NCBI RefSeq assembly: GCF_022760925.1 | Contig: NZ_JAKTNT010000006.1 | Location: forward strand, 62,001-126,000 | DNA: 64,000 bases | Reading direction: 5' to 3' | From: Thermus hydrothermalis | GTDB lineage: Bacteria; Deinococcota; Deinococci; Deinococcales; Thermaceae | Shown: positions 50,043 to 61,471 of the stretch, in pieces | Numbering within the stretch: the stretch's first letter is position 1 | Layout of the letters: each line of letters opens with the position of its first letter | The notes under the pieces: generated by a model | The model's database searches: none | The model's input: only the letters and a program-made list of their open reading frames with translations | What the model was told of the DNA's origin: nothing | Position numbers and translations under genes: made by a program

Positions 50043-50870
50043 ATGAAGGACTACTACGCCATTTTGGGCGTCCCGAGAAACGCCACGCAGGAGGAGATCA
50101 AGAGGGCCTACAAGCGCCTGGCCCGCCAGTACCACCCCGACGTCAACAAGAGCCCCGAGGCGGAGGAGAAGTTCAAGGAGATCAACGAGGCCTACGCCGT
50201 CCTCTCCGACCCGGAAAAGCGGAAGCTTTACGATACCTATGGCACCACCCAAGCCCCCCCACCCCCACCCCCCGGCGGATACGATTTCTCGGGCTTTGAC
50301 GTGGAGGACTTCTCCGACTTCTTCCAAGAGCTCTTCGGCGGGGGGCTTTTCGGCCGTAGGGGACGCAGGCGGGGCCGGGACGTGCGGGCCGAGCTTCCCC
50401 TCACCCTGGAAGAGGCCTTCCACGGGGGGGAAAAGGTCTTGGAGGTGGGGGGGCGCCGGGTTTCCGTGCGCATCCCCCCCGGGGTGCAGGAGGGAAGCGT
50501 GATCCGCCTGCCGGGGATGGGCGGCCCTGGGGAGCCCCCGGGGGACCTCCTCCTCCACGTGCGCCTTCTCCCCCACCCCTACTTCCGCCTCGAGGGCCAA
50601 GACCTCTACGCCACCTTGGACGTGCCCGCCCCCATCGCCGTGGTGGGGGGCAAGGTGCGGGCAAAGACCTTGGAAGGCCCCGTGGAGGTCACCATCCCCC
50701 CAAGGACCCAGGCGGGGCGGAAGCTACGGCTAAGGGGCAAGGGCTTCCCCGGACCTTCAGGCCGGGGCGACCTCTACCTGGAGGTGCGCCTCACCATCCC
50801 CGAGCGCCTCACCCCCGAGGAAGAAGCCCTCTGGAAAAAGCTCGCGGAGGCGTACTATGCTCGTGCGTAG
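50043..50870 (+). CDS. dnaJ: Molecular chaperone DnaJ, type II (no zinc finger)
   Basis: 275 aa co-chaperone. The J domain covers residues 3-68 with HPD at 31-33. A short proline- and Gly/Phe-rich linker (APPPPPPGG...[10 protein letters not shown]) follows. The two C-terminal substrate domains ('[22 protein letters not shown]', '[22 protein letters not shown]', '[25 protein letters not shown]') are intact but the four CXXCXGXG repeats are missing, as known for the Thermus DnaJ. It overlaps dafA by 14 bases. Confidence 0.97.
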
Positions 50871-51093
50871 CGGGTGGATTTCCCTGGACGCCTTGGCGGA
50901 GTACGGCCTCACCCTAAGCGCCGTGCAGGCCTACGTGGAGATCGGCTTCGTGGAGCCTTTGGTGGTGGGGGATACCTGGTACTTCCGCCAAGAAGACCTC
51001 CAGCGCATGGCCAAGGCTGAGCGCATCCGTAAGGACCTCGGGGCCAACCTCATCGGGGCCGCCCTGGTGGTGGAGATCCTAGAGAGGCGGTAG
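50857..51093 (+). CDS. dafA: DnaK-DnaJ assembly factor DafA (MerR-like/CbpM-like)
   Basis: 78 aa, the size of Thermus DafA, which holds DnaK and DnaJ in a complex. The sequence '[27 protein letters not shown]' (~9-35) looks like the helix-turn-helix start of MerR-type proteins, and '[38 protein letters not shown]' (~41-78) is close in style to CbpM, the modulator of the DnaJ homologue CbpA, and to the HspR repressor N-half. So DafA is probably a CbpM relative. Translation is coupled to dnaJ. Confidence 0.93.
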
Positions 51094-51208: not shown

Positions 51209-51238
51209 CTTGACACAATTTATGTCAAGTGATATGCT
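51209..51238 (+). promoter_or_regulatory. HAIR-like operator and promoter of the clpB operon
   Basis: A perfect inverted repeat CTTGACA-N7-TGTCAAG spans 51209-51229. It contains the -35 TTGACA (51210-51215); TATGCT (51233-51238) follows after 17 bases. The spacing and outer bases match the HspR-associated inverted repeat (CTTGAGT-N7-ACTCAAG), so a repressor bound here would cover the promoter. The leader to clpB is about 18 nt with AGGAGG. Confidence 0.8.
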
Positions 51239-51261: not shown

Positions 51262-53826
51262 ATGAACCTGGAACGCTGGACGCAAGCTGCCCGCGAAGCC
51301 CTGGCCCAGGCGCAGGTCCTGGCCCGGGAGATGAAGCACCAGGCCATTGACCTGCCCCATCTCTGGGTGGTTCTCCTCAAAGACCCCAAGGGCCTGGCTT
51401 GGCGCCTCCTGGAAAAGGCGGGGGCCGACCCCAAGGCCCTTAAGGAACTCCAGGAAAGGGAGCTCGCCCGGCTACCCAAGGTGGAAGGGGCGGAAGGGGG
51501 GCAGTACCTCACGAGCCGCCTCTCGGGCGCCTTCCACCGGGCCGAGGCCCTGATGGCGGAGCTCAAGGACCGCTTCGTGGCCCTGGACACCCTGGTCCTG
51601 GCCTTGAGCGAGGCCACCCCGGGGCTTCCCGGCCTAGAGCCCCTGAAAAAAGCCTTACAAGACCTAAGAGGAGGGAAGACCGTGCAGACGGAACACGCAG
51701 AAAGCACCTACAACGCTTTGGAGCAGTACGGCATTGACCTGACCCAGATGGCCGCCGAGGGGAAACTGGACCCCGTGATCGGCCGGGACGAGGAGATCCG
51801 GCGGGTCATCCAGATCCTCCTCCGGCGCACCAAGAACAACCCGGTCCTCATCGGCGAGCCCGGCGTGGGGAAGACCGCCATCGTGGAGGGGTTAGCCCAG
51901 CGCATCGTCAAGGGGGACGTGCCCGAAGGCCTCAAGGGCAAGCGCATCATCTCCTTGCAGATGGGCTCCCTCCTGGCCGGGGCCAAGTACCGGGGCGAGT
52001 TTGAGGAGCGCCTGAAGGCGGTGATCCAGGAGGTGGTGCAGTCCCAAGGGGAGATCATCCTCTTCATTGACGAGCTCCACACCGTGGTGGGGGCGGGCAA
52101 GGCGGAGGGCGCCGTGGACGCCGGGAACATGCTCAAACCCGCCTTGGCCCGGGGCGAACTCAGGCTCATCGGGGCCACCACCTTGGACGAGTACCGGGAG
52201 ATTGAGAAGGACCCCGCCCTGGAGCGGCGCTTCCAGCCCGTATACGTGGACGAGCCCAGCGTGGAGGACACCATCTCCATCCTCCGGGGCATCAAGGAGA
52301 AGTACGAGGTGCACCACGGGGTGCGCATCTCCGACCCCGCCATCGTGGCGGCGGCCGTCCTCTCCCACCGCTACATCACGGAAAGGCGCCTCCCGGACAA
52401 GGCCATTGACCTCATTGACGAGGCGGCGGCGAGGCTCCGCATGGCTTTGGAAAGCGCCCCGGAGGAGATAGACACCCTGGAGCGGAAGAAGCTCCAGCTG
52501 GAGATTGAAAGGGAGGCCTTGAAAAAGGAGAAGGACCCCGACTCCCTGGAGCGCCTTAAGGCCATTGAGGCGGAGATCGCCGAGCTCACCAAGGAGATAG
52601 AAAAGCTCCGGGCGGAGTGGGAGGCGGAGCGGGAAATCCTGAAGAAGCTCCGCGAAGCGCAGCAACGCCTGGACGAGGTGCGGCGGCAGATAGAGCTTGC
52701 GGAAAGGCAGTACGACCTGAACCGGGCGGCGGAGCTCCGCTACGGGGAGTTGCCCCGCCTCGAGGCCGAGGTGGAGGCGCTTTCCGAGAAGCTAAGGGGC
52801 GCCAGGTTCGTCCGCCTGGAGGTCACGGAGGAGGACATCGCCGAGATCGTCTCCCGCTGGACCGGCATCCCCGTGGCCAAGCTCCTGGAGGGCGAGCGGG
52901 AAAAGCTTTTGCGGCTTGAAGAGGAGCTCCACAAGCGGGTGGTGGGCCAGGAGGAGGCCATACGGGCCGTGGCCGACGCCATCCGCCGCGCCCGGGCCGG
53001 GCTCAAGGACCCGAACCGCCCCATCGGGAGCTTCCTCTTCCTGGGCCCCACGGGGGTGGGCAAGACGGAGCTGGCCAAGACCCTGGCCGCCACCCTCTTT
53101 GACACCGAGGAGGCCATGGTGCGCATTGACATGACCGAGTACATGGAAAAGCACGCCGTCTCCCGCCTCATCGGGGCCCCGCCGGGCTACGTGGGCTACG
53201 AGGAGGGGGGCCAGCTCACCGAGGCGGTGCGGCGCAGGCCTTACACCGTCATCCTCTTTGACGAGATTGAGAAGGCCCACCCCGACGTCTTCAACATCCT
53301 CCTGCAAATCCTGGACGATGGCCGCCTCACGGACAGCCACGGGCGCACCGTGGATTTCCGCAACACGGTCATCATCCTCACCTCCAACCTGGGTAGCCCC
53401 CTCATCCTCGAGGGCATCCAGAAGGGCCTGCCCTACGAGAGGATCCGGGAGGAGGTCTTCGGGGTCTTGCAGAAGCACTTCCGCCCCGAGTTCCTGAACC
53501 GCTTGGACGAGATCGTGGTCTTCCGGCCCCTCTCGCAGGAGCAAATTCGGGCCATCGTGGAGATCCAGCTTGGGAACCTCCGGGCCCGGCTTGCGGAAAA
53601 GCGCATCACCCTGGAGCTCACCGAGGCGGCCAAGGACTTCCTGGCCCAAAGGGGCTACGACCCCGTCTTCGGCGCCCGGCCCCTGAAGCGCGTGATCCAA
53701 CGGGAGCTGGAAACCCCCTTGGCCAAGAAGATCCTGGCCGGGGAGGTGAAGGAGGGGGACCGGGTGGTGGTGGACGCCACGCCCCAAGGCCTGGTGTTCC
53801 ACACCGCCACCCGGGTAGAGGCCTAA
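51262..53826 (+). CDS. clpB: ATP-dependent disaggregase ClpB
   Basis: 854 aa, the size of T. thermophilus ClpB. N-domain (~1-140), NBD1 with Walker [11 protein letters not shown] (~198-207) and '[15 protein letters not shown]', the coiled-coil M-domain (~400-520, '[20 protein letters not shown]...'), NBD2 with Walker [13 protein letters not shown] (~594-605), '[16 protein letters not shown]' and sensor 2 GARPLKR. It resolubilises aggregated proteins with DnaK. First gene of a seven-gene stress operon. Confidence 0.98.
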
Positions 53827-53838
53827 AGGAGGGAGAAG

Positions 53839-54228
53839 ATGGACGTGCTGGAGGTGTTGCGGCAGGCTTACCAGGACGAGCTCCTGGACGCCCTAAGGGC
53901 CGAGCGGGCGGCGGAAGGGGTGCCCTACCCCCACGTCCGGGCCCTCCTCCAGGAGGTGGCTTCCCGGGAGCGGGCCCACGCGGAGGCCCTGGCCGAGGCC
54001 CTGCGGAAGCGGGGGGCCTCCCTGCCCCCCGCCCCCAAGGCCGGGGAGGAGGGTTGGGAGGCCATGCTCCGCCTCCTCTCCGAGGAGGGGTTTGACCGGG
54101 CCTATTACCTGGAGAGCACCTTCCCCGACCCCGAGCTGGAAAGCCTTTTCACCCGCCTCGGCCAGGAGGAGCGGTTGAACCAGGAAGCGGTACGGAAAGC
54201 GGTGGCGCTTATCGGAGGTAACCTATGA
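53839..54228 (+). CDS. Ferritin-like/rubrerythrin-like small helical protein
   Basis: 129 aa, all helical in appearance. 'AYQDELLDALRAERAAEGVPYPHVRALLQEVASRERAHAEALAEAL' (~10-55) has the E...E-x2-H pattern of a ferritin-like di-iron half-site (E-R-A-H). The second half ('YLESTFPDPELESLFTRLGQEERLNQEAVRKAVALI') shows E but an Asn where a His would be expected, so metal binding may be incomplete. It follows clpB by 12 bases with AAAGGAGGGAGA and overlaps the next gene by ATGA. A DUF2202-like or erythrin-vacuolar-iron-transport-type protein is possible. Function unknown. Confidence 0.6.
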   Translation: MDVLEVLRQAYQDELLDALRAERAAEGVPYPHVRALLQEVASRERAHAEALAEALRKRGASLPPAPKAGEEGWEAMLRLLSEEGFDRAYYLESTFPDPELESLFTRLGQEERLNQEAVRKAVALIGGNL

Positions 54229-55409
54229 TCTCTAAGGAAGAAGTCAAACGGCTACGCGAGGCCATCGGCAAGGCGGAAGGTCCCGTGCTCTCCCTGTACC
54301 TGGACGTGAACCCGGCCAAGCCGGAAAACGCTTCCAGGGCCTACGCCCTGAGGGCCAAGGACGCCATGAAGGCCCTTAAGGTCCCCGAGGACCTGGCGGA
54401 GAAGGTGCTGGAGGTCCTTAAGAACCAGGTCCTCGAGGCCAAGACCGCCGTCTTCTTCGCCGGGGAAGACCTCTTTGAGGTCCTTCTCCTGCAGGTGGAA
54501 CTCCCCTTGGTGAGCGCTCTGAAGACCCACTTCCTGGACGAAAAGGAAAGCCGCCTCCTTAGCGGCGGCGTCCTGGCCCACTACGGCCCTCCCTTCCTCC
54601 TCCCCCTGGTCTACGCCCTGGACGAGTACGAGCGCTACGGGGTGGTCTACGTGGACCAGGAGCGCTGGCGGGTCTTTGAGGTCTTCCTGGGGGAGATTGA
54701 GGAGGTCCAGGACGCCTTCTTGGCCCTGGACACCGAGGCCTGGCGCCGCCTCAGCCTGGACGCCCCTGGCCGCCGCTTCAACCTGGGGGGCATCGCCCGG
54801 GGCGGGGCGGGGCAAGACCTCTTCGCCAAGCGCCTCGAGGCCTGGGAAGAGCGGTTTTACAAGGCCTTGGCCCATGACCTGGAAAAGCTCGTGGAGGGCC
54901 GGGGCTTCACCCGCCTTGTCCTCATGGGCCCCGAGGAGCACACCAAGCTTTTCTTGGGCTACCTGCCCAAGCGCCTGAAGGAGAAGGTGGTGGCCCTCCT
55001 CCCCTCCCTCCCCCACCCCGGGGCCACCCCCGGCCAGGTGCTAAAGCGCCTGGAGCCGGAGCTTTCCGCCATTGAGCGGGCCAAGGAGGTGGAGCTTCTC
55101 AAGAGCCTGGAAGAGGCCTACCCCAAGGCGGTCTTCGGCCCTGAGGTGCTGGAGAGGGTGCAGGAAGGGCGGGTGGAGGTCTGGGTCCTGCCCTGGACCC
55201 TGGACCAGGGGGTTTACGCCTGCGATGGCCTCTACTTCGCCGAGGAAGCCAAGGTCCTGGCCTTCTGCGAGCGCCCCGAGGCCAAGCCCTTGGCCGTGGT
55301 GCTGCCCGAGCTCGCCGCAGGCTACGCCACCAAGCTGGAGTTCGTGCGCGGCGAGGCGGAAAAAAGGCTTCTTGAGCGCGGGGGGATGGCCGCGCTCTTG
55401 AGGTGGTAA
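54225..55409 (+). CDS. eRF1-like (baeRF-type) protein, putative ribosome-associated factor
   Basis: 394 aa. 'VLSLYLDVNPAKPENASRAYALRAKDA' (~21-47) is the start typical of bacterial archaeo-eukaryotic release factor-like (baeRF) proteins. A middle domain resembles the eRF1/Vms1 RNase H-like fold, with a glycine-rich loop 'LGGIARGGAGQDLFAKRLE' (~187-205) where Vms1/eRF1 have GGQ; then 'EERFYKALAHDLEKLVEGRGFTRLVLMGPEEHTKLFLGYLPKRL' (~208-251) and an L7Ae-like C-terminal lobe ('VYACDGLYFAEEAKVLAFC'). Overlaps the previous gene by 4 bases. The baeRF identity is my reading of the pattern; no activity is proven. Confidence 0.65.
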   Translation: MISKEEVKRLREAIGKAEGPVLSLYLDVNPAKPENASRAYALRAKDAMKALKVPEDLAEKVLEVLKNQVLEAKTAVFFAGEDLFEVLLLQVELPLVSALKTHFLDEKESRLLSGGVLAHYGPPFLLPLVYALDEYERYGVVYVDQERWRVFEVFLGEIEEVQDAFLALDTEAWRRLSLDAPGRRFNLGGIARGGAGQDLFAKRLEAWEERFYKALAHDLEKLVEGRGFTRLVLMGPEEHTKLFLGYLPKRLKEKVVALLPSLPHPGATPGQVLKRLEPELSAIERAKEVELLKSLEEAYPKAVFGPEVLERVQEGRVEVWVLPWTLDQGVYACDGLYFAEEAKVLAFCERPEAKPLAVVLPELAAGYATKLEFVRGEAEKRLLERGGMAALLRW

Positions 55410-55423
55410 GGAGGTGATGGGAG

Positions 55424-55840
55424 ATGTTGCGGTTTGATCCTTTTAGGGAGCTGGAGGAGCTTCAGGAAAGGCTGGCGCGGGCCTTCGTTCCCCAGGCCCA
55501 GCAGGGCCCCCGGGTCTACGCCCCGCCGGTGGATGTGATGGAGGACGCCGAAGGGCTCCACCTCCTCGTCTACCTCCCGGGGGTGGATCCTGCCAAGGTG
55601 GAGGTGGTGGCGGAAGAGGGCGTCCTCTCCGTGAAGGCGGAGCGGCCCCTGGAGAAGCAAGAGGGGGTGGCGTACCACCGGCTCGAGGGCCCCTACGGCA
55701 CCTTCGCCCGGAGCTTCAACGTGCCCAGCACCTACGACCTCTCCCGGGTACAGGCCCGGTTCCGCCACGGCGTCTTGCACCTTCTCGTGCCCAAGGCGGA
55801 GGCCACGAAGCCCAAAAAGATCCAGGTCCAGGTGGAGTAA
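55424..55840 (+). CDS. Small heat-shock protein (Hsp20/alpha-crystallin)
   Basis: 138 aa. 'MLRFDPFRELEELQERLARAF' N-terminal arm, alpha-crystallin domain ~37-120 ('PPVDVMEDAEGLHLLVYLPGVDPAKVEVVAEEGVLSVKAERP', then 'GTFARSFNVPSTYDLSRVQARFRHGVLHLLVPKAE'), with the A-x-x-x-n-G-V-L motif (QARFRHGVLHL). The C-terminal IXI-like motif is IQV-Q-V. It holds unfolding proteins for ClpB/DnaK. TAAGGAGGTGAT before the ATG. Confidence 0.95.
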   Translation: MLRFDPFRELEELQERLARAFVPQAQQGPRVYAPPVDVMEDAEGLHLLVYLPGVDPAKVEVVAEEGVLSVKAERPLEKQEGVAYHRLEGPYGTFARSFNVPSTYDLSRVQARFRHGVLHLLVPKAEATKPKKIQVQVE

Positions 55841-55851
55841 GGAGGTGAGGT

Positions 55852-56538
55852 ATGCGGCGCACGGTAAGGTACATCCTGGCCACCTCTAACCCCATGGGAG
55901 ACCTCGAGGCCCTGGAGAAGTTCGTCAAGGTGGCCCCGGACACGGGGGCGGACGCCATCGCCGTCATCGGCAACCTCATGCCCAAGACGGCCAAAAGCCG
56001 CGACTACGCTGCCTTCTTCCGCATCCTGTCCGAGGCGCACCTCCCCACCGTCTACATCCCCGGCCCCGAGGACGCCCCCATCTGGGAGTACCTGCGGGAG
56101 GCGGCCAACATTGAGCTGGTCCGGCCCGAGATGCGGAGCGTCCACGAAACCTTCACCTTCTGGAAAGGCCCCTACCTGGTGGCGGGGCTAGGCGGTACCA
56201 TCACCGAGGACGGGGAGCCCGAGGAGCACGAGGCCCTGCGCTACCCTGCCTGGGTGGCGGAGTACCACCTGAAGGCCCTTTGGGAGCTTAAGGACTACCC
56301 CCGGATCTTCCTCTTCCACACCGCCCCCTACCACAAGGGCCTGGGCGAGGGGGGCTCCCACGAGGTGGCCCACCTCATCAAGACCCACAACCCCCTCCTC
56401 GCCATCGTGGCCGGTAGGGGCCAGAAGCACGAAATGCTGGGCGCAAGCTGGGTGGTGGTCCCCGGGGACCTTTCCGAAGGAGAGTATAGCCTCCTAGACC
56501 TCCGCGCCCGCAAGCTGGAAACGGGCAACGTGCGCTGA
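55852..56538 (+). CDS. Metallophosphoesterase-fold protein with degenerate active site
   Basis: 228 aa. The fold order of calcineurin-like phosphoesterases can be followed, but the metal motifs are altered: DxH is SNP (12-14), GDxxD is GNLMP (40-44), GNHD is GPED (71-74), and GHxH is GRGQKH (near residue 185); 'LFHTAPYH' keeps a His. I recall a T. thermophilus HB8 structural-genomics protein of this family. It probably cannot bind two metals normally and may act as a binding or scaffold protein. AAGGAGGTGAGGT precedes the ATG; it overlaps thioredoxin by one base. Confidence 0.8.
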
Positions 56539-56960
56539 TGGACAAGGTGGTGGTCTGCCCCAACTGCGGCGCCAAGAACCGGCTTGGGACGCCCCCGCCC
56601 GGCCAGGTACCTGTTTGCGGGGCCTGCAAGTCTCCCCTGCCCTGGATCGTGGAGGCGGACGAGCGGAGCTTCCCGGAGGAGGTGGCGGGGGCGCCCCTGG
56701 TGCTGGTGGACTTCTGGGCGCCCTGGTGCGGACCCTGCCGGATGGTGGCCCCCCTTTTGGAAGCCCTGGCCCAGGAGCACGCCGGCAAGCTCAAGGTGGT
56801 GAAGGTGAACACCGACTTTAACCCGGGGCTTGCCGCCCGGTACGGGGTGAGGAGCATCCCCACCCTGGTGCTCTTCCAACGAGGCCACCCGGTGGCCACC
56901 TGGGTGGGGGCAAGCCCCAAGCGGGTCCTGGTGGAGCGCCTTAAGCCCTACCTGGCCTGA
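56538..56960 (+). CDS. Thioredoxin-2-like protein with N-terminal zinc ribbon
   Basis: 140 aa TrxC-type. The N-terminal zinc ribbon uses C7, C10, C27 and C30 (CPNC...CGAC). The thioredoxin domain has the active site WCGPC (63-67) and '[15 protein letters not shown]' with cis-Pro. Family members reduce disulfides and respond to oxidative stress; the zinc ribbon is a redox switch in E. coli Trx2. In this operon it probably supports refolding of oxidised proteins; it could also serve APS reductase. Confidence 0.93.
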
Positions 56961-56972
56961 AGGAGGTGGAAG

Positions 56973-57383
56973 ATGCTGGAAAAGCTTTGGCCCTTTGGCA
57001 AGAACCGGGTGCGCAAGGCCTTTGAAGAGGCCCTGGAGAAGGCCTTCCAGGAAACCGAGGTTTTGGAACCCCTCTCCGAGCTGGAGGAGCACGAGGACCA
57101 CTACCTCCTCCGGGTGGAGGTGCCCGGGCTCGGCCCCGAGAACCTCGAGGTGCGCCTGGAGGGGGACCAGCTCGTGGTGGAGGGGGAGAAGCGGGAGGAA
57201 AAGCGCACCAAGCACCTGGCGGAAATCGTCTACGGCAGGATCTACCGCGCTTACCTCCTGCCCAAGGACGCCAAGAAGGAGGGCATTGAGGCCCGCCTCC
57301 GCAAGGGGGTGTTGGAGGTGAGGATCCCGCGGGAAAAGCGCCCCGCCGAGCCCCCGGTGAAGATCCCCGTGAAGGAGGCCTAG
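56973..57383 (+). CDS. Small heat-shock protein (Hsp20), second copy
   Basis: 136 aa. The N-terminal arm is different from the first copy (MLEKLWPFGKNRVRKAFEEA). The alpha-crystallin domain includes 'EHEDHYLLRVEVPGLGPENLEVRLEGDQLVVEGEKREEKR' (~44-83), 'GRIYRAYLLPKDAKKEGIEARLRKGVLEVRIPREKR' (~90-125), and the IXI-like end is 'VKIPVKE'. The two copies share an operon but not much sequence, so hetero-oligomers or different clients are possible. AAGGAGGTGGAAG before the ATG; last gene before a strong terminator. Confidence 0.95.
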   Translation: MLEKLWPFGKNRVRKAFEEALEKAFQETEVLEPLSELEEHEDHYLLRVEVPGLGPENLEVRLEGDQLVVEGEKREEKRTKHLAEIVYGRIYRAYLLPKDAKKEGIEARLRKGVLEVRIPREKRPAEPPVKIPVKEA

Positions 57384-57388
57384 AGGGT

Positions 57389-57419
57389 GCCCCGCCTCCC
57401 ACGGCGGGGCCTTCTTTTA
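57389..57419 (+). terminator. Terminator of the clpB operon
   Basis: GCCCCGCC, TCCCAC loop, GGCGGGGC, then CTTCTTTTAT. Same stem family as at 3388, 27638 and 49462. Confidence 0.88.
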
Positions 57420-59999: not shown

Positions 60000-60836
60000 A
60001 TGGACATTTTCTTCCAGCTTTTCTGGCTCTTCTTTATCCTCTCGGCCCTCTCCCCCTACTTCCAACAGCAGATGCTCTTGGGGGCCAGGGCCCGCAAGAT
60101 CGCCGAGCTGGAGAGGAAGCGGGGTAGCCGGGTCATCACCCTCATCCACCGCCAGGAGGCGGTGAGCTTCTTGGGCATCCCCATCAGCCGCTTCATCAAC
60201 ATTGACGACTCCGAGCAGGTCCTCCGGGCCATCCGCCTCACGGACAAGAACATGCCCATTGACCTCATCCTCCACACCCCAGGGGGCCTGGTCCTGGCGG
60301 CGGAGCAGATCGCCGAGGCCCTTCTGCGCCACCCGGCCAAGGTAACCGTCTTCGTCCCCCACTACGCCATGTCGGGGGGTACCCTCATCGCCCTGGCCGC
60401 CGACGAGATCGTCATGGACGAAAACGCCGTACTAGGCCCCGTGGACCCCCAGCTCGGCCAGTACCCGGCGGCGAGCGTCCTCAAGGTCCTGGAAAAGAAG
60501 CCCCTCTCGGAGATTGACGACCAGACCCTCATCCTGGCGGACATAGCGGAAAAGGCCCTCAAGCAGGTGAAGGCCACGGTGAAGAACCTCCTCCTCAAGC
60601 ACATGCCCGAGGAGAAGGCGGAGGAAGTGGCCCACCTCCTATCCCAAGGGACCTGGACCCACGACTACCCCATTGACGTGGCCCAGGCCAGGGGCTTGGG
60701 GCTCAACGTTTCCACGGACATGCCCCTGGAGGTCTACGAGCTCATGGACCTCTACCCTCAGGCCCAAGGCGGCAAGCCCAGCGTCCAGTACGTGCCCCTC
60801 CCCTACCGCCAGGAGCCCAAAGCCGGGAGGTCCTAA
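60000..60836 (+). CDS. SppA-like/ClpP-fold membrane serine protease (SDH family)
   Basis: 278 aa. An N-terminal transmembrane segment (~3-20) precedes the ClpP-like fold. The nucleophile is S125 in 'HYAMSGGTLIALAADEIVMDENAVLGPVDPQLGQYPA' (~121-157), with H121 and D149 as possible partners, matching the SDH (Ser-Asp-His) proteases of thermophiles and archaea. 'MPIDLILHTPGGLVLAAEQI' gives the oxyanion glycines. It probably cleaves membrane proteins from the cytoplasmic side. CTTGGAGGTCACCT before the ATG. Followed within 2 bases by a rhomboid gene. Confidence 0.88.
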   Translation: MDIFFQLFWLFFILSALSPYFQQQMLLGARARKIAELERKRGSRVITLIHRQEAVSFLGIPISRFINIDDSEQVLRAIRLTDKNMPIDLILHTPGGLVLAAEQIAEALLRHPAKVTVFVPHYAMSGGTLIALAADEIVMDENAVLGPVDPQLGQYPAASVLKVLEKKPLSEIDDQTLILADIAEKALKQVKATVKNLLLKHMPEEKAEEVAHLLSQGTWTHDYPIDVAQARGLGLNVSTDMPLEVYELMDLYPQAQGGKPSVQYVPLPYRQEPKAGRS

Positions 60837-60838
60837 GC

Positions 60839-61471
60839 TTGTTTCCCCTTTACGACCTGAACCAGGCCCGCAGGCCCGCCCTGGTGGTTAAGGGGCTAGT
60901 TTTGGCCAACGCCCTGGTCTTCCTTTGGCAGCTCTCCGTGGGTCTAGAGGAAAGCGCCTACGCCCTAGGCTTCATCCCCGCCCGCTTCTTCGCCGACCCC
61001 CTGGGGGAAGGGTACCACCTTCTCACCAGCATGTTCCTCCATGGGAGCTTTTTCCACATTCTTTCCAACATGTGGTTCCTCTGGGTCTTCGGGGACAACG
61101 TGGAAGACCGCATGGGCCACGGGCGCTTCCTCCTCTTCTACCTTCTGGGCGGGGTGGCCGCTGCCCTGGCCCAGGGGCTTCTCACCCCCTTCTCCCCCGT
61201 ACCCATGATAGGGGCGAGCGGGGCCGTTTCCGCGGTGCTCGGCGCCTACTACGCCCTCTTCCCCAGGGCGTACGTGGTTTCCCTGGTCCTCTTCATCTTC
61301 CCCTTGTTCGTCACCTTCCCCGCCGGGTTTTACCTGGGGTACTGGGCCTTCCTCCAGCTCATCCAGGGGCTTTTGGGCCTCCCCGGGGTGGCCTGGTGGG
61401 CCCACCTGGGAGGCTTCCTCTACGGGGTCCTCCTGGCCCCGCGCTTGGCCCGGAGGTGGCGGCGCTGGTAA
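60839..61471 (+). CDS. Rhomboid family intramembrane serine protease
   Basis: 210 aa with six or seven hydrophobic helices. The catalytic dyad is S127 in 'GASGAVSAVLGAY' and H189 in 'WWAHLGGF'; the H-x3-N motif (H73...N77) in 'GSFFHILSNMWFLWVFGDNVED' (split, ~69-90) is intact. So it should be active. The start is a TTG with GGGAGGTCC upstream. It follows the SppA-like protease by 2 bases, a pair likely to work on the same membrane proteins. Its TAA stop is part of the promoter of the next gene. Confidence 0.93.
   Translation: MFPLYDLNQARRPALVVKGLVLANALVFLWQLSVGLEESAYALGFIPARFFADPLGEGYHLLTSMFLHGSFFHILSNMWFLWVFGDNVEDRMGHGRFLLFYLLGGVAAALAQGLLTPFSPVPMIGASGAVSAVLGAYYALFPRAYVVSLVLFIFPLFVTFPAGFYLGYWAFLQLIQGLLGLPGVAWWAHLGGFLYGVLLAPRLARRWRRW

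Follow-up and report, generated by a model that had tools for sequence, protein, structure and literature searches.

The gene at positions 54225-55409 (+ strand) of the window, the 64,000-nucleotide stretch of the Thermus hydrothermalis genome analysed here, very probably codes for a ribosome-hibernation factor of the Balon type. Computation establishes its family and fold, the register of its loop, its conservation and the layout of its operon. In its available text, the Balon report (Helena-Bueno et al. 2024, PMC10901736) already counts T. thermophilus as a species that has a Balon homologue, and it presents stress operons with Hsp20, DnaK and DnaJ in which Deinococcus-Thermus has an entry. 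The baeRF families have also been named, and a non-catalytic, Dom34-like role in the ribosomal A site was proposed for most of them (Burroughs and Aravind 2019, PMC6514570). The protein thus adds one more member to a kind already described. No report characterizing a Thermus Balon was found in the literature. TTHA1485, a tentative locus tag for the T. thermophilus orthologue, was dropped, as the only paper found to carry this tag concerns chlorite dismutase.

Results

Gene, family and fold

The open reading frame, confirmed as a real gene, encodes 394 amino acids. Its ATG start is preceded by a ribosome-binding site (GGAGGT) and overlaps the stop codon of the preceding ferritin-like gene (ATGA). 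The genome holds a single copy, an identical protein is present in Thermus brockianus YIM 77927, and full-length homologues occur both within the genus and outside it. In two cases, L099 (Thermus sp. JCM 17653) and G025, the gene and some of its neighbours are broken into several pieces, probably by draft-assembly frameshifts.

The protein shares a full middle-domain match with baeRF family 10. The Pfam model baeRF_family10 (PF18854) covers residues 123-277 with an E value of 2.1e-35 (122.5 bits, against a curated cutoff of 27.1), and other baeRF families give weaker Pfam matches. The best NCBIfam model is that of the MSMEG_1130 ribosome-hibernation family (E 8.5e-19), at 67.8 bits against an equivalog cutoff of 480, and the Rv2629 hibernation equivalog reaches 33.5 bits, below its cutoff of 320. 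The protein is therefore related to these two equivalogs but falls outside the named subfamilies.

A PDB search with a 47-sequence profile, listing matches to E ≤ 10, ranked Balon/MSMEG_1130 first (E 3.3e-37) over the full length (positions 6-377). Below it came aeRF1/aRF1 (4.4e-17), Rv2629 (1.1e-12), Pelota (3.5e-9) and the Balon of Psychrobacter urativorans (2.6e-5). The PDB sequence searches brought up no Thermus member. An AlphaFold2 model (mean pLDDT 83, pTM 0.75, with a disordered loop at residues 179-193) was compared with the PDB using Foldseek; the top two matches are again Balon/MSMEG_1130 (E 8e-21 and 1e-19, TM 0.67-0.72), and all Balon structures fall within the top 8. This is a three-domain aeRF1-type protein, with N, M and C domains at residues ~1-120, ~123-265 and ~270-394. 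Pfam, the PDB profile search and Foldseek agree, at the superfamily level, on the aeRF1/baeRF-type fold that the initial annotation had suggested from sequence patterns, and homology supports a ribosomal A-site factor. The kinship with eRF1 and Vms1 that it had proposed stood in part: eRF1 is matched, second to Balon, but Vms1 is not. No Vms1 chain appeared in the PDB profile search at E ≤ 10 and the acVLRF1 Pfam model had no match at E ≤ 1, and membership of the Vms1 (VLRF1) group was rejected on these grounds.

Balon (8rd8, 8rdv, 8rdw) and MSMEG_1130/Rv2629 (8v9j, 8v9k, 8v9l) share with the Thermus protein the three-domain aeRF1-type fold over its full length, the loop register to D178 and a stress operon with Hsp20 (PMC10901736). 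Identity to these proteins is, however, only about 13-20%, and the Thermus protein differs from Balon in having KP for HP, Gln for S177, a preceding Gly-Gly and an insert of ~20 amino acids at residues 95-116 (about 54507-54572). The insert is found only in Thermus, being absent or shorter in other homologues. It is modelled partly as short strands and is among the least conserved parts of the protein within the genus. The aeRF1/eRF1 proteins have the fold, the C-terminal LRW/LRY end and the place of the loop in common with it, but their match is much weaker than that of Balon.

The loop at the GGQ place

The loop R-G-G-A-G-Q-D (residues 192-198, codons at 54798-54818, + strand) contains GGAGQ at residues 193-197. 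Its location at the GGQ place of eRF1, recognized early from the letters, is borne out by the profile alignment, where R192-G-G-A-G-Q-D-L-F200 lies ungapped over eRF1 R-G-G-Q-S-A-L-R-F. The loop keeps GG but lacks GGQ: the catalytic Gln column of eRF1 is occupied by Ala195, and Gln197 lies two residues beyond it. Against P. urativorans Balon (hand count on the HMMER alignment), G196-Q197-D198 lies over G176-S177-D178, making D198 the equivalent of D178. The Balon residues G176-S177-D178 are reported to contact 23S A2451, and G176 and S177 also C2452 (PMC11317432). By the same count, Ala-Gly-Gln of MSMEG_1130 lies over eRF1 GGQ, and an Arg takes the place of Q197. This protein is nonetheless a hibernation factor that occupies the A site and inhibits translation, and the available text of PMC10901736 has no discussion of hydrolase activity for it. 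Given that a hibernation factor carries a loop Gln, the glutamine alone is no argument against hibernation. The GGxxQ spacing is typical of Vms1-like factors (PMC6514570), which leaves room for release activity in Thermus.

Conservation was compared across 26 Thermus-type sequences and 50 sister homologues with 33-75% identity. Q197 is invariant in the former (26/26), where residues 192-203 are 99% conserved. In the sister homologues, the same column holds K in 23, T in 14, R in 7, Q in 2 and other residues in 4. D198, R203 and R210 are invariant, including in all 50 sister homologues, and F200, W207 and F211 are nearly so. When the loop columns are left out of the tree (a quick one with several open forks), at least six changes between Q and non-Q are needed, and Thermus is placed among K, R and T lineages. 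On the column statistics and the tree, a conserved catalytic role for the loop Gln was rejected. Within the clade of the window protein, the Q197 column behaves as an exchangeable polar position. Because so few sister homologues have Gln and so many changes fall on the tree, Thermus probably regained this residue and did not retain it as a catalytic one. What is constrained is the Gly-rich loop together with the Asp and the arginines of the helix, a pattern more in keeping with binding to the ribosome than with catalysis.

In Chloroflexota and Acidobacteriota, most of the distant family-10 proteins retain the Gln, in a W-S/A-Q context, whereas the clade of the window protein is mostly without it. 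Loops of the W-S/A-Q or R-S-Q type were noted in Chloroflexota sequences L128, L129, L130, L132 and L133 and in L119-L127 (mainly Acidobacteriota). L129 also matches the acVLRF1 and aRF1 models. Judged by their loops, the W-S/A-Q members of these two phyla are stronger candidates than the window protein for hydrolysing peptidyl-tRNA. A point not found in the available text of the prior papers is that most of the Deinococcota clade has lost the family-10 Gln, which is present throughout Thermus.

On the side of the decoding centre, residues 21-35 (codons at 54285-54329, + strand) comprise the VLSLYLDVNP strand (residues 21-30) followed by AKPEN. When aligned by profile to PDB 8rd8, K32-P33-E34-N35 fall on the HP motif of Balon and its flank, H27-P28-A29-N30, with the Pro kept (P33) and the His replaced by K32. 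P33 is retained in 35 of the 50 sister homologues, and MSMEG_1130 is also without HP at the aligned place. Glu26 of Balon, beside the HP motif, contacts C1409 (PMC11317432).

A chaperone operon

The genes are ordered dnaK-grpE-dnaJ-dafA-like/clpB-ferritin-like-balon-hsp20-metallophosphoesterase-thioredoxin-hsp20. On the + strand, clpB (51262-53826; TIGR03346, 1340 bits) is followed by the gene for a ferritin/rubrerythrin-like protein of 129 aa (53839-54228) and the balon-type gene. Then come hsp20 (55424-55840), a calcineurin-like metallophosphoesterase (Metallophos_3, 55852-56538), a thioredoxin with N-terminal zinc-ribbon-like cysteines (56538-56960) and a second hsp20 (56973-57383). A promoter-like site, TTGACA-17-TATGCT, precedes clpB (51210-51238, + strand; 10/12, with TG before the -10) and is conserved in Thermus. 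An intrinsic-terminator-like hairpin with 8 G-C pairs (57389-57410, + strand), the best terminator in the region, closes the unit. Given this site before clpB and the hairpin after the second hsp20, the balon-type gene is most likely part of a transcription unit that runs from clpB to hsp20 and does not include dnaK. The chaperone neighbours, the promoter-like site and the conserved order uphold the heat-shock operon setting of the initial annotation. Its placement of the gene between clpB and hsp20 needs amending: hsp20 is directly downstream, but the ferritin-like gene intervenes on the clpB side.

A candidate heat-shock operator, the inverted repeat CTTGACA-N7-TGTCAAG (51209-51229, + strand), lies over the -35 of the clpB promoter. 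It is the sole perfect copy in the genome, and Calidithermus and roughly half of the named Thermus loci retain its half sites, CTTGA/TCAAG. We take its geometry to be reminiscent of an HspR operator. No HspR repressor was identified among the MerR_1 matches of the genome, which consist of two MerR-type regulators, one of 279 aa and one of 178 aa that scores below the HspR cutoff, and a third, weak match. Between dnaJ and clpB, at what is presumably the place of T. thermophilus dafA, a 78-aa MerR_2/CbpM-like open reading frame (50857-51093) could encode a regulator or a modulator of chaperones.

The clpB-ferritin-like-balon-hsp20-phosphoesterase order is conserved across the named Thermus loci. 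Among other Thermaceae, ferritin-like/balon/hsp20 occurs in several and balon-hsp20 in most, including Calidithermus, and in Meiothermus the hsp20 neighbour of balon is much weaker. In Chloroflexota L129, L132 and L135, the balon-type gene is near genes for an SDH-type serine protease and a rhomboid protein. A pair of this kind is also encoded in the window at 60000-61471, ~5 kb downstream of the balon-type gene.

The genome encodes other ribosome factors as well. The one HPF/RaiA gene is away from the balon-type locus, with none adjacent to it, and both tmRNA and SmpB are present. A second tmRNA-family match (G000:C21:22564-22904, L148) scores 63 bits, above the gathering score; the main match scores 169 bits. 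There are only two RF-1-domain proteins, the number expected for RF1 and RF2, and thus no ArfB.

Discussion

What might a Balon-type factor do in Thermus? By analogy with Balon and its mycobacterial homologues, the protein may bind ribosomes, cause hibernation, contact EF-Tu and be induced by heat. A stress-responsive operon would co-produce it with ClpB and Hsp20, and it would then enter 70S ribosomes at the A site when they are idle or stalled. There, the N domain would lie close to the decoding centre and the RGGAGQD loop of the M domain would point toward A2451 of the peptidyl-transferase centre, with the C domain in contact with the GTPase centre/EF-Tu. Translation would be blocked, and the ribosome and any nascent chain would be protected until the stress ends. 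Weighing against this reading are the Gly-Gly and Gln with Vms1-like spacing that all 26 Thermus-type loops retain, the possible hydrolysis suggested for family 10 (PMC6514570), the lack of an HPF/RaiA gene beside the locus and the lack of Thermus members among the PDB search matches.

The initial annotation had instead put release of stalled chains foremost: the GGAGQ loop would hydrolyse peptidyl-tRNA on heat-stalled ribosomes and pass the chains to ClpB and Hsp20. We now consider this unlikely, and it no longer stands as the leading function. The Vms1-like spacing of the loop and its near-complete conservation within Thermus speak for such an activity, as do the W-S/A-Q loops of distant relatives and the lack of ArfB, and family 10 was singled out as keeping the loop glutamine and possibly hydrolysing (PMC6514570). 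However, the Gln is offset from that of eRF1 and not conserved beyond Thermus, neither acVLRF1 nor Vms1 is matched, and tmRNA with SmpB is already available for rescue. The nearest solved relatives are Balon proteins, hibernation factors that block the A site and retain the nascent chain. A dual factor, in which a GGxxQ loop with Vms1 spacing, regained by Thermus on the Balon scaffold, would let the protein park heat-stalled ribosomes and under some conditions release the nascent chain, operon-coupled to ClpB/Hsp20, seems to us quite improbable. As a Pelota/Dom34-like factor, the protein could instead enter stalled ribosomes at the A site, hydrolyse nothing and promote their splitting, not their storage. 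Pelota belongs to the same superfamily, and the Dom34-like role proposed for baeRF proteins was non-catalytic (PMC6514570). In the PDB profile search, however, Pelota falls far behind Balon. We know of no Hbs1 or ABCE1 partners in bacteria, and this too argues against a Pelota-like role, which is very improbable.

Ribosomes for structural studies are routinely taken from Thermus. In this thermophile, which is open to genetic work, the location in a clpB-hsp20 operon ties the hibernation of ribosomes to the disaggregation of proteins, and the loop comparison makes it testable which bacterial aeRF1-type proteins are inert plugs and which still hydrolyse.
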